DNA from: an uncultured Methanobacteriaceae archaeon | Lineage (GTDB): Archaea > Methanobacteriota > Methanobacteria > Methanobacteriales > Methanobacteriaceae | Length of the DNA: 58,327 bases | Reading direction: 5' to 3' | Assembly (NCBI GenBank): GCA_902797085.1 | Contig: CADBRM010000057.1 | Coordinates: 1 to 58,327 of the forward strand | Part shown: positions 4,781 to 34,030 of the stretch, one piece after another | How the letters are laid out: the number at the start of each line of letters is the position of its first letter | Numbering within the stretch: the stretch's first letter is position 1 | The notes under the pieces: generated by a model | The model's input: the letters and a program-made list of their open reading frames with translations, nothing else | Databases searched by the model: none | Told to the model about the DNA's origin: nothing | Translations under genes and position numbers: made by a program

Positions 4781-4872
4781 TTATTATAATATATAAATGT
4801 TTTCAATCATTCAAATAAAAATTCAAATAAAGTTAAAATAAATAAATTATTTTGAAAATGATAAAAATTTAT

Positions 4873-6738
4873 CTAATATATGTCTTCCAGGTATATCCTA
4901 TTCATTAGGGGAATTTCATTCACCAAATCCCTTATATTATCTGCACTAACCAACATAGAATAATTTCCAATTAATATCAATTTTCTTCTTGAACGGGTTA
5001 TTGAAACATTTAACTGATTCTCATCTGCAATAAATTTCTTCTGAAACTTGGTTAAAGATTGATTCATACTTTTACAAAAACTGACTATAATTACATCTTT
5101 TTCTCTTCCCTGGAATCTATAAATTGTATCGCATTCAACATGAATATCTTCCTCCAAAAATAATTTATTCAGATACAACTTTTGTTTTTTGTAGGGAGTT
5201 ATAACACCTATCTCATCTTCAGAAATCTTATTCCTGATTAAGGACTTGACAATCGATAAAATAATTTTTGATTCATGTTTATTACAACATCCACCGGATA
5301 CGGAAGATTCATTAAATCCCATATTTGACGTGTCAATAAATGTTAATGCATCATCGTTAATCAAAGGAGAACCGCCCTTTATTAAGGAAATTTTCTGCTT
5401 TTTAACATTATCTCCGGTTAATAGTTTACCACCATAATACAATTTGCTAGCCACATCACTAATTTCCTGATTCATCCTATATTGAATATTAAGAAAGGTA
5501 TAATTATCAGGATATTTATCAATTAAAAAATTAAATACGGATTTATTCAATGTGTAAGAAGCATTATCATTTTGTATAGGCTGTAACTGTTTATCATCAC
5601 CTATTAAAATAAATTTATCAGTTTTCATTAGGGGAATTAATGCTAAATATACGGGTACCTGACTAGCTTCATCCATAATGACATAATCAAATTCCATATC
5701 CCTTGTAAGAAAACTTGATGATGAAAGTACTGTGGATGCGATAATATTAACATTCTTAAGTATATCATTTTGTATATTACTTTTAATATTTTCAATCTCA
5801 GCAGATATTTCAAGTATTGCTTCTTTATTCTTAGAGTTGATAGTATTGTTTATATGATTATTTAATGTAATTTCATTTTCCTCAATTGAAAATAAGTGTT
5901 TTAATATCTTATTGATTATACCTACACCGGAAGACTTTTCAACAACATTACTTTGAATAATTTCAGAGGGATTTTTTAAATTTTCAATAATACTTTCTTT
6001 TTCAAGTATAACTTCATACAGGGGATGTTTTTTAATCTGTTCTTCCAACGTGTATTTACTTGCCAGATCAGATACCTTACTTTTTTGTCCCAATCTAAGA
6101 ATATCCCTTTCATCAATTGTATCCAAACGTTCTATAATATTGTCCAAAGCTATATGAGTATGTGTTGTAATTAATATCCTTTTTTTCCTTTTATGCAACT
6201 GTTTAATTATTTCAATTATTGTATGTGTTTTTCCAGTACCTGGTGGACCTTTGATTATATGGAATTTGTCTGCTTGTAAAGATCTTTCTACCGCTATCGA
6301 CTGATTTTTGTTTAATTTATCAATCAAATAGTAATTATCTGAAAATGTTGGATTAAAATTTTCAAACAATACTCTCAAAGTATCTTTATTTGATTCGTTT
6401 ACCTTGTCATGTAGTATATTATCCAATGTTTCCTGCAATTTATGGATAATAATATCCTTTTGTATATTCTGTATGGATACTGTTTGTTTAACTTTAAACT
6501 TAGCTTTTTTAGATAACTGTATCCGAATATTCTTTAGATTAATGTCTATTATTTGTGCAGGTACTCTATCAATTTCTACAGGCATATTCTTTACCAAGTT
6601 AGAAGGATATTTAAGAGAAATATCAAGAACATTACCATCAATCCTTGTTACCTGCCCATAAATTGAAGGATTATCTTTTTTTTCTTTTTCCACCAATTCT
6701 TTGAATTCAATTATAAAATCTTGATTAGTATCTATCAT
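4873..6738 (-). CDS. SF1 helicase of the DNA2/NAM7/IGHMBP2 type
   Basis: The 621-residue protein has a small beta-rich N-terminal region (about 25-95) followed by an SF1B helicase core. Walker A is GPPGTGKT at 164-171, motif II is DEAS in YVIMDEASQVP, QYRM is motif IV-like, and the C-terminal motifs IYRFQGREKDVIIVSF (V) and SITRSRRKLILIG (VI) are intact. It should unwind or remodel nucleic acid using ATP; the exact substrate is not evident. No ribosome site precedes ATG 6738, but TTTATAAA at 6757-6764 lies about 22 bp upstream, so the transcript is probably leaderless. It is not tightly linked to its neighbours. Confidence 0.88.
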   Translation of the reverse strand: MIDTNQDFIIEFKELVEKEKKDNPSIYGQVTRIDGNVLDISLKYPSNLVKNMPVEIDRVPAQIIDINLKNIRIQLSKKAKFKVKQTVSIQNIQKDIIIHKLQETLDNILHDKVNESNKDTLRVLFENFNPTFSDNYYLIDKLNKNQSIAVERSLQADKFHIIKGPPGTGKTHTIIEIIKQLHKRKKRILITTHTHIALDNIIERLDTIDERDILRLGQKSKVSDLASKYTLEEQIKKHPLYEVILEKESIIENLKNPSEIIQSNVVEKSSGVGIINKILKHLFSIEENEITLNNHINNTINSKNKEAILEISAEIENIKSNIQNDILKNVNIIASTVLSSSSFLTRDMEFDYVIMDEASQVPVYLALIPLMKTDKFILIGDDKQLQPIQNDNASYTLNKSVFNFLIDKYPDNYTFLNIQYRMNQEISDVASKLYYGGKLLTGDNVKKQKISLIKGGSPLINDDALTFIDTSNMGFNESSVSGGCCNKHESKIILSIVKSLIRNKISEDEIGVITPYKKQKLYLNKLFLEEDIHVECDTIYRFQGREKDVIIVSFCKSMNQSLTKFQKKFIADENQLNVSITRSRRKLILIGNYSMLVSADNIRDLVNEIPLMNRIYLEDIY

Positions 6739-31213: not shown

Positions 31214-31233
31214 CCATTAAAGAGTTGTTAAAA

Positions 31234-32403
31234 ATGGGATTTATTAGAGACAGCATCCATGGTGATTTACATTTAACAGATTTTGAACTAAAAATTATAG
31301 ATACTGTTGAAATGCAAAGACTCAGACGGATAAAACAATTAGGATTCACAAACTTAGTATATCCTGGTGCTAATCACACAAGATTTGAACATTCAATAGG
31401 TACCCTTTTTTTAGCAAATAAAGTTGGAACCACATTAGAATTAGATAAGGAAGTAATTGAACTTCTTAGAGTCTGCGGATTGTTACATGATATAGGACAC
31501 TCCCCATTTTCACATGTATCAGAAAGAGCATTGAAACATAAACATGAAACAGTCACTAAAAAAATTATTAGTGACTCCAGCATTACAGATATAGTGGAAG
31601 AACAATTTGATGTAAAACTAATTACAAGCATCATTGATGGAAAGACGAAATATGGAAAAATCATTTCTGGAGATTTAGACGTTGATAGAATGGATTACTT
31701 AGCCAGAGATTCATATTATACTGGTGTAGCATACGGAATAATAGATACTGAAAGATTAATTTATAGTTTAAAATATGATGAAGATAATCTAGTACTATCC
31801 CCTAAAGGAGTACAGGCAGCAGAATCAACATTACTTGCCCGATATTTCATGTATCCTACAGTATACCAACATCATACAACTAGAATAGTCAACAGTATGT
31901 TTAGAGTATCTTTATCCAGATTATTAGAAGATAAAATAATTTCAGAAGATGAATTAAGATATTTGGATGATGGTGACTTAATTAATATCACAAGGAATAC
32001 TCCCGGCTTACCTGAACAAACTATGAAAAACTTGGATACACGACATTTGTATAAAAAAACAGATACTATCAACCTTGCACAATTTGAAGAACCATCCAAA
32101 ATTGTAGGAATGGACAAAAAATATTTAATTAAAGCTGAAGAAGAAATTGCAGAAAAACTGAATCTAAATCCTGAAGAAGTAATAATTGATATGCCTGAAG
32201 AACTATCCTTTAAAAAAATGAATGTTTTAGTTGAATCATATGATGGTTTAAAACCATTAACAGAAGTGTCAACCATTATCGATTCATTGAAAAAAGCACA
32301 ATATAACTATGCAGATCTTGCTTTATTTATGTCACCAGAAAATAAAGAAATTGCAATTGAGAAAAATATAAAATTAGAAGATTACCTAACTTTACCCCTC
32401 TAA
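31234..32403 (+). CDS. HD-domain phosphohydrolase (dNTPase-like)
   Basis: From ATG 31234 (a TTG at 31225 is less likely) the protein has 389 residues. The HD core is clear: HTRFEHSIGT supplies the first His, LLHDIGHSPFSH the HD pair, and LDVDRMDYLARDS the distal Asp. This resembles the SAMHD1/dGTPase-like and archaeal HD phosphohydrolases that act on nucleotides. No regulatory SAM domain is present. It is the last gene of the NMNAT operon, and the GTTAAC array begins 19 bp after its stop. Confidence 0.9.
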   Translation: MGFIRDSIHGDLHLTDFELKIIDTVEMQRLRRIKQLGFTNLVYPGANHTRFEHSIGTLFLANKVGTTLELDKEVIELLRVCGLLHDIGHSPFSHVSERALKHKHETVTKKIISDSSITDIVEEQFDVKLITSIIDGKTKYGKIISGDLDVDRMDYLARDSYYTGVAYGIIDTERLIYSLKYDEDNLVLSPKGVQAAESTLLARYFMYPTVYQHHTTRIVNSMFRVSLSRLLEDKIISEDELRYLDDGDLINITRNTPGLPEQTMKNLDTRHLYKKTDTINLAQFEEPSKIVGMDKKYLIKAEEEIAEKLNLNPEEVIIDMPEELSFKKMNVLVESYDGLKPLTEVSTIIDSLKKAQYNYADLALFMSPENKEIAIEKNIKLEDYLTLPL

Positions 32404-32421
32404 AACAAGTTTTTAACTATT

Positions 32422-33115
32422 GTTAACAAATTGTTAACATGATGTTAACCTACTTTTTTTCTATTAATGTTTATAACAAGAGCATATCATGATAAATAAT
32501 ATACTCACCACAAAAAAACAAATGTTAACAAAAAGTTAACAAAGCAAAAGATATTGTCACTAAAAAAATACTTGTTTTCGGATAATTTTTTTAGAACACA
32601 TAATTCTGTTACCAGAAGATTATAAAAGTTAACATGACAATTGAAAAAAGTTAACAAAAGTTAACTTCCCAAAATATTTCCAGTGATTATATAACGAATG
32701 GATAATTCTTAAAAAAAATACGATAACTTTTTTTCATAATCAATGTTAACAAAATGTTAACATAAAATTTATTTATGAAAACAATTAATCAATAAAAAAA
32801 AAAGTGATCCATTATATCTGAAAACAATTTGTTAACATAACCGAAAAAAAGTTAACATTTTAAAACAACAGAAAAACATTTTAAAACAAAGTTTATATAA
32901 GAATTATTACAAAATTAATATTAATGACATATGTTAACAAATGTTAACAAAAATAAAAATAACTAGAAAGTAAGTACAGATGAATTCATAAACACGGATA
33001 CTTTTTAACTTTCAGTATATTTAAAAAAAAAATAATAATGTTAACAAGATGTTAACATGAAAAAAAATGTTAACAATCCTTAAGAAAAAGTTAACATGAA
33101 AAGAGATTTGTTAAC
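32422..33115. repeat. Array of 19 GTTAAC palindromes
   Basis: The gene-free stretch 32404-33136 contains 19 GTTAAC hexamers (first bases at 32422, 32433, 32444, 32524, 32535, 32628, 32650, 32660, 32745, 32756, 32831, 32851, 32933, 32943, 33040, 33051, 33069, 33090, 33110). Twelve are the octamer TGTTAACA and 17 are followed by A. Within clusters the spacing is 10-11 or 18-22 bp; cluster starts recur at about 103 bp (86-117). A 15-bp direct repeat AACATTTTAAAACAA also occurs at 32854 and 32875, 21 bp apart. By eye I find only about seven GTTAAC in the other 57.6 kb. The array lies upstream of the coiled-coil gene, whose product may bind it. Confidence 0.85.
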
Positions 33116-33136
33116 AATAGTAATAGGGTGTATTAT

Positions 33137-34030
33137 ATGACTTCTGGTCAAGCTACTGCAAGATTAAAAAATATTGAAGAATGGCATAAATTTAAAGAGA
33201 ATGCCGAAAGTAAAGGAATAAAAATTGGTGAAGCATTAGAAAATATCCTAGTTGCATACAACAATAATTCTTTAGTAGATCTTGAAGAATTTGAAAATAT
33301 CAGAACAGAATATTATGACTGTACAAAAAAATTAAATTCATCAGAAAAAGAAGTGGCTGATATACAAGAAAAATATAATAATTTAGAAAAAAACATTAAC
33401 GAATTAAATAATATAATTTCCGAATTAAATAATGAAAATAATTTATTAAAAGATAATAATAAAAAATTAGAAAATAAATTAAAAGAGCAAGAAGAAATTG
33501 TTAAAAATATTACGAATGAGAATACCAATTTGAAAATCGAAAGTTCTGATAAAAAAAGCATTAATGATCAACTCCAAGACAGTCTTAAAAAGATAAGTTT
33601 ATTGGAAAAAGAAAATGATAACCTAAATACACAAAACAAAGAACTTGAAGAGGTTAATCATAAGTTAACTGAGGACAACATTCGTCTAAAAGGAATTTCA
33701 GACATTCCTGAAAAAGAGAAGAAATTGCTACAACAACAATATGATAATTTAGAAGAATTATACAGTAATTTAAAAAGTGATAATTCAGTATTAAATGAAT
33801 CATTAAAAACATTAACTGATGAACTTAAACAACAACAAAAGGACACTCGTACAGCAAGAAGTGATTACAAACATATTGTTGAAAATTTAAATAAACTTCA
33901 CGAAGAATTTAATGACATTCAAAATGAAAATAAACAATACAATGTAATGTTTGCTGAAATAAAAAAAATGTCAATCATGGAAAGAATATTAGGTAAATAT
34001 CCCGACAATATTAAAGAGTTAAAACCATGA
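33137..34030 (+). CDS. Ribbon-helix-helix-like N-terminus with long coiled coil; probable binder of the GTTAAC array
   Basis: ATG 33137 follows GGGTG at ideal spacing; an in-frame GTG (33128) is inside that site. The 297-residue protein has an N-terminal ~45 residues (TARLKNIEEWHKFKENAESKG then IKIGEALENILVAYN) that fit a beta-strand plus two helices, the ribbon-helix-helix layout. Residues about 50-270 are Asn/Glu/Lys/Leu heptads, an uninterrupted coiled coil; the end has a hydrophobic MSIMERILGKYP helix. RHH plus coiled coil recalls ParR/KfrA-like and nucleoid proteins. Its own promoter lies in the array, so autoregulation is likely. DNA binding is inferred, not shown. Confidence 0.72.
   Translation: MTSGQATARLKNIEEWHKFKENAESKGIKIGEALENILVAYNNNSLVDLEEFENIRTEYYDCTKKLNSSEKEVADIQEKYNNLEKNINELNNIISELNNENNLLKDNNKKLENKLKEQEEIVKNITNENTNLKIESSDKKSINDQLQDSLKKISLLEKENDNLNTQNKELEEVNHKLTEDNIRLKGISDIPEKEKKLLQQQYDNLEELYSNLKSDNSVLNESLKTLTDELKQQQKDTRTARSDYKHIVENLNKLHEEFNDIQNENKQYNVMFAEIKKMSIMERILGKYPDNIKELKP

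Follow-up and report, generated by a model that had tools for sequence, protein, structure and literature searches.

A dense GTTAAC array and the RHH-like coiled-coil gene beside it as a candidate motor-less centromere module in Methanosphaera

The window, a stretch of 58,327 nucleotides from an uncultured Methanobacteriaceae archaeon of the genus Methanosphaera (assembly GCA_902797085.1, contig CADBRM010000057.1), contains a single intergenic region of 20% GC (32404-33127), flanked on one side by an HD-domain gene (31225-32403) and on the other by a plus-strand gene for a 297-residue protein (33137-34030). The other neighbour of the latter gene is IMPDH. Nineteen copies of the palindrome GTTAAC occupy 694 bp of this region (32422-33115), each confirmed at its position. 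From the end of the last copy to the start codon of the downstream gene is 21 bp, a point absent from the initial annotation. The counts given there for the array itself were reproduced on recounting: 19 sites in 694 bp, 12 of them in the form TGTTAACA, and an A after 17 of the 19. Its figure of about seven GTTAAC outside the array was slightly low, as the window holds eight. The region had also been called gene-free, in agreement with the lack of any open reading frame of 80 residues or longer between 32404 and 33127, and no structured RNA or tRNA was found within the array.

The array is far denser than its composition predicts. A first-order Markov model built on the array's own composition gave a mean of 0.38 GTTAAC and no more than four in 1000 simulations, consistent with the earlier estimate of well under one. 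The genome as a whole (a draft, 86.8% complete) contains 465 copies in 1.774 Mb, so that the array is ∼100-fold enriched. Close pairs (gap of 20 bp or less) number 15 genome-wide, of which 12 lie in the array and three are isolated; the array is the single dense one in this genome, which answers the question of uniqueness raised at the outset. These counts, together with the helical phasing described below, rule out chance or low complexity. Avoidance of an HpaI-like restriction site was dropped as an explanation, since avoidance would not cluster GTTAAC. A CRISPR array was likewise rejected: the sites are 6 bp long and lie at irregular multiples of the helical turn, whereas CRISPR repeats measure some 24-47 bp and have regular spacers, and no cas-like genes were seen among the neighbours. 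The initial annotation had likewise judged the repeats too short for CRISPR. A search of open-licence literature returned nothing relevant for GTTAAC in archaea, or for Methanosphaera combined with ribbon-helix-helix (RHH) or centromere.

Within the array, the sites form doublets and triplets with steps of one or two helical turns, separated by 75-97 bp, an organization that had gone unremarked. From 5' to 3', these are a triplet at 32422, 32433 and 32444 with 11-bp steps (32422-32449); a doublet at 32524 and 32535, 11 bp apart (32524-32540); a triplet at 32628, 32650 and 32660 with steps of 22 and 10 bp (32628-32665); a doublet at 32745 and 32756, 11 bp apart (32745-32761); a pair at 32831 and 32851, 20 bp apart (32831-32856); a doublet at 32933 and 32943, 10 bp apart (32933-32948); a doublet at 33040 and 33051, 11 bp apart (33040-33056); and, directly 5' of the gene, three sites at 33069, 33090 and 33110 with steps of 21 and 20 bp (33069-33115). 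These last three likely overlap the promoter of the 297-residue protein's gene, whose position is inferred. Most steps between neighbouring sites measure 10, 11, 18 or 20-22 bp. When pair distances below 60 bp were pooled over the seven species that carry this array, they fell only at 10-11, 18, 20-22, 29-32, 39-43, 50-52 and 59 bp, with none at 12-17, 23-28, 33-38 or 44-49 bp. The best period is 10.35-10.45 bp, and compared with random placement the phasing has p ∼0.0015 in the window, p ≤0.003 in four other species, and p of 0.015 and 0.18 in the remaining two. Because the spacing matches helical turns, the GTTAAC sites mainly share one side of the DNA. Aligning the seven regions shows spacers that are only 53-55% identical, whereas the four sites of the doublets at 32933/32943 and 33040/33051 are intact in all six orthologues. 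The clusters are centred ∼90-125 bp apart, a spacing that might accommodate archaeal histone particles between clusters occupied by protein.

The gene next to the array starts at an ATG (33137), with a GTG at 33128 also possible, and encodes an RHH-like domain, a long coiled coil and a conserved C-terminal tail. Its product matches no specific Pfam family and has only generic, weak coiled-coil matches. The predicted anatomy comprises an extended segment (residues 1-12), two helices (13-25 and 30-42), a coiled coil (49-276; 33281-33964) with a break near 133-139, and the short tail. In the best register of the coiled coil, 58% of a/d positions are hydrophobic versus 17% of the others. The tail (residues 268-297; 33938-34027), which includes MSIMERILGKYPDNIKEL and is common to the paralogues, follows the motif MS..(D/E)R(I/L)..(Y/L)P..(I/V)KEL and is moderately amphipathic (hydrophobic moment 0.48-0.71). 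The N-terminal domain (residues 1-48; 33137-33280) is predicted to bind DNA and varies with the array motif. A PDB profile search with the first 60 residues gave NikR as the best match (E 0.0085) and ParG as a weaker one (E 0.47), and many of the Foldseek matches to the N-terminus were RHH proteins (CopG, NikR, NikA, AmrZ, MatP, CdbA), all at E >3. The Pfam search did not recognise an RHH domain in the protein, and the monomer models contain no beta strand. On these individually weak matches, the N-terminus is likely an RHH domain rather than a helix-turn-helix (HTH).

A profile of the conserved tail places the protein in a family that is represented in 18 of 20 Methanosphaera genomes, usually by two to six copies each, and by sporadic relatives in neighbouring genera. 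The same profile found no member in two of the 20 genomes and only a weak match in a third; the absence from two indicates that the function is not essential genus-wide. A search of the genome contigs with the window protein itself returned orthologues of its own head type only, here called type A. These occur in seven species, every time with 15-19 upstream GTTAAC and every time between the HD gene and IMPDH, so that the conservation beside the same gene that the initial annotation had proposed checking is present.

The other head types are accompanied by other arrays. Type B has no GTTAAC and 12-16 upstream GTRYAC, many in 11-bp pairs. Type E has 22-26 upstream GTAATATT with weak phasing (p 0.07 and 0.03), type F eight GTAAAACA, and type H nine GTTACC. 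Type G has 21-27 CTTACC, or 39 and 33 sites when the variants CATACC, GTTACC and ATTACC are included. Steps of ∼8-12 bp recur in the arrays of GTRYAC, GTAAAACA, GTTACC and CTTACC, and a matrix of motif counts against type over 39 loci shows no crossover. No dense array was found upstream of types C and D: type C is preceded by degenerate A-rich repeats (AAATCA/AAACA at 7, 14 and 21 bp, weak) and type D by none. These copies, which have no dense array, show that the activity of the family does not always depend on one. Throughout the genus, type C (L096, L092, L098 and other loci) keeps its place next to a 2-oxoacid oxidoreductase-like gene block, and the region upstream of it is long and AT-rich.

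Similarity between motifs is predicted better by similarity of the N-termini than by that of the tails (r=0.92 and 0.73, respectively); restricted to comparisons between subfamilies, the correlations are 0.46 for the N-terminus and 0.11 for the tail. Types A and B illustrate this, with similarities of 0.70 in the tail, 0.26 in the N-terminus and 0.11 in the motif. Among the evidence that each protein uses its N-terminus to bind its own upstream array, this co-variation of N-terminus and motif is the strongest. For the window, this sequence evidence strongly suggests that the 297-residue protein binds the GTTAAC array through its N-terminus, and it points to the array as the cognate site for the gene that immediately follows it, and probably as its operator too. 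In a neighbouring genus, a family member (L022, G018:C27, ∼700-1020) is preceded by several GGTAT/ATACC, two of them 11 bp apart, which suggests that the gene-plus-array layout extends beyond Methanosphaera.

Comparison of loci indicates that gene and array behave as one unit. Twelve Methanosphaera genomes have no type A gene at the HD-IMPDH junction; they have no array there either, and a different short open reading frame follows the HD gene. Absence of the array from the orthologous locus had initially been named as an argument against its significance; such absence does occur, but only in species without the gene there, which supports a gene-plus-array unit instead. In genome G113, a type H module (array and gene) lies directly after tRNA-Gln, in a neighbourhood of an ABC gene, a USP gene, a coiled-coil gene and the tRNA; in the matching neighbourhood of the window, tRNA-Gln is followed by an adenylyltransferase gene, the HD gene and then type A. 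This neighbourhood has therefore received different modules at least twice. The type H module (L067, G113:C1, 3714-5188) comes right after tRNA-Gln(CTG), and in the window tRNA-Gln(CTG) lies 2 kb before the array; this tRNA may be an integration point. Type B occupies a separate locus, where gene order agrees among the three genomes that were compared. A degenerate copy of a family gene, interrupted by several stop codons and accompanied by traces of CTTACC-type repeats (L087, G123:C1, ∼392610-393120), is likely the chromosomal relic of a module like that of plasmid pNP174. A viral origin was dropped after a scan of IMG/VR revealed no relatives.

The family is also present on a plasmid. The genome of Methanosphaera sp. 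ISO3-F5 (G118) consists of contigs of 2,506,044 and 174,118 bp (PMC11008217). The smaller, pNP174, is a complete circular plasmid with one type G unit, whose gene (118870-119844) is annotated as hypothetical and whose array has 39 iterons over ∼1.2 kb, mostly 11 bp apart. This megaplasmid also encodes its own MCM and primase subunit PriS, together with a histone, several HEPN/nucleotidyltransferase pairs and BREX-type genes (L134-L137). A search of pNP174 for ParA-type (CbiA), tubulin and MreB-like genes found none, the ISO3-F5 matches being chromosomal only. If pNP174 is actively kept, the type G unit is the best centromere candidate, with no dedicated motor found on the plasmid. Elsewhere, a Soj/ParA-type ATPase gene (L138, G000:C1:13000-22891, 4858-6005) is followed by one for a 118-residue protein starting MADNALGRGLDALIKK, which we take to resemble the N-terminus of bacterial ParB. 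Similar ParA-type matches occur in G123, G118 and G110; in these three closed genomes, ∼18-21 kb separate the ATPase and the best orc1/cdc6 match. This ATPase near orc1/cdc6 is a possible motor or partner of the modules.

The reading that we favour, and consider reasonably probable, is that array and gene form a cis-acting module, a centromere-like array with its own RHH/coiled-coil binder, which acts as a motor-less centromere or anchor and probably regulates itself. RHH-like N-terminal dimers would very probably bind each GTTAAC palindrome, and the one- and two-turn spacing would place the bound dimers on one face, where they could stack into a higher-order complex. The coiled coils would then bridge neighbouring dimers and sister arrays, while the conserved tail might dock the complex to a common partner, be it the membrane, the nucleoid or a host factor. 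As a motor-less centromere or anchor, such a complex would position or segregate its replicon; judged from sequence, a role of the pair in DNA segregation is probable. The complex would also cover the promoter and repress the gene, as suggested by the last site ending so close to the start codon. The initial annotation had described a dense protein-binding array and offered four roles: a centromere-like partition site, a nucleoid-organising locus, a replication-origin element or a cooperative operator. Its description of the kind of element stands; a centromere-like or positional role with a probable operator is favoured, and a main origin is disfavoured.

The short distance between array and start codon would also suit a pure autoregulatory operator, with adjustment of its own transcription as the protein's only reason to bind there, and the sites of KfrA and SegB likewise overlap or adjoin their own promoters. 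However, 19 sites in 694 bp, and 39 in ∼1.2 kb on pNP174, are far above what autoregulation needs, and the long coiled coil, along with a tail that is conserved among proteins with differing N-termini, suggests a second task; as a full account, the operator is unlikely. Next in our ranking, and also unlikely, is a chromosome-organising landmark comparable to MatP or CdbA, in which array and protein loop or condense a domain with no part in segregation. The appearance of both proteins among the weak Foldseek matches agrees with this, as does the settlement of types A (after HD) and H (after tRNA-Gln) in the same neighbourhood. The one dense array of this genome nevertheless differs from the dispersed sites of MatP-like factors, and the plasmid copy fits partition better, even if both functions may overlap.

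The module could instead be a mobile or relic plasmid partition cassette that resides passively on the chromosome, as the family member with stop codons in G123 and the different module loci in different clades might indicate. This is improbable: in seven species, type A has stayed in a single place, its reading frames intact and several of its sites invariant amid diverged spacers, a pattern that indicates continued selection. Least probable is a replication origin or a set of plasmid-type Rep iterons. Origins typically contain iteron-like arrays rich in A and T, but the adjacent protein does not resemble an initiator, the MCM and PriS genes of pNP174 are located elsewhere on that plasmid, and the distance to the best orc1/cdc6 match is ∼470 kb for the type A module of ISO3-F5 and ∼320 and ∼290 kb for the type B modules of G123 and G110, respectively. 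With these distances of ∼290-470 kb in closed genomes, the main chromosomal origin was rejected.

The centromere-like module would matter because the segregation and positioning of DNA in methanogens of the Methanobacteriales are largely unknown. In a gut archaeal genus, it provides a candidate centromere that is compact and portable and comes with its own binder, and its centromere function is testable on a small plasmid. The natural swaps of specificity amount to a built-in experiment from which a protein-DNA code can be read. More tentatively, Methanosphaera may use a set of interchangeable motor-less modules, each a single gene with a helically phased array of its own, in which the RHH-like end is swapped and one tail receptor is kept, sorting chromosomes and plasmids free of cross-talk; we regard this broader scheme as plausible but doubtful.

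Comparison with known partition systems helps to place the module. ParR is not known to have a long coiled coil. In type II ParR/parC systems, an RHH protein binds direct repeats (11 bp in R1, 10 bp in pB171) and the ParR-parC pair sets specificity (PMC9426499). Helically spaced iterons are present in the window array, but ParR/parC needs an adjacent ParM actin, and no ParM-like gene was found beside the array gene, its neighbours being the HD gene and IMPDH. In archaeal SegAB, a chromosome partition system, the RHH protein SegB works with the SegA ATPase and has palindromic sites upstream of its own operon, its 13-bp motif occurring many times, scattered on the chromosome (PMC12284271). The window module shares the archaeal setting, the RHH-like protein and the upstream palindromes, but it differs in lacking an adjacent SegA: no ParA-type segA gene was found directly before the array gene, where the HD-domain gene lies instead. 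MatP combines an RHH domain and a coiled coil on palindromes, but its matS sites are single and dispersed in the Ter domain, and it is not known to have an array at its own gene; its likeness to the window protein is the weak Foldseek match to the N-terminus. Classical parS sites cluster at the origin, unlike the chromosomal place of this array. With neither the actin of ParR nor the SegA of SegAB, the module is classed as working like the motor-less single-protein systems, not as a member of one.

Three such systems come closest. The Firmicutes proteins pSK1 Par and RocS, which segregate a low-copy plasmid and a chromosome, respectively, have a DNA-binding N-terminus, a long coiled coil and a conserved C-terminal stretch, with no motor (PMC11500499). 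The DNA-binding-type N-terminus, coiled coil and cis array of the window module resemble this layout. The two are bacterial, however, with DUF536 and a MinD-like amphipathic helix, whereas the present family is archaeal and RHH-like, with a tail motif of its own and many swapped specificities. DUF536 is absent among the best 25 of the window protein's 35 Pfam matches. KfrA of IncP/IncU plasmids has a DNA-binding N-terminus and an α-helical tail of ∼300 residues, binds repeats at its own promoter and aids plasmid maintenance (PMC7783346). The tail of the window protein is likewise predicted to be helical, and the array may overlap the gene's promoter, but KfrA is an HTH protein with five 9-bp repeats that works with KfrC and the IncC/KorB segrosome, while the window protein looks RHH on weak matches. 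StbA of R388 binds two sets of five 9-bp repeats (stbDRs) at its own promoter with 2-bp spacing, an 11-bp period, and stabilises the plasmid with no need for the StbB ATPase (PMC3098194); it is a different protein, encoded with stbB/stbC in an operon tied to conjugation. By analogy, pSK1 Par/RocS, KfrA and R388 StbA are, on our best reading, the nearest working analogues of the module.
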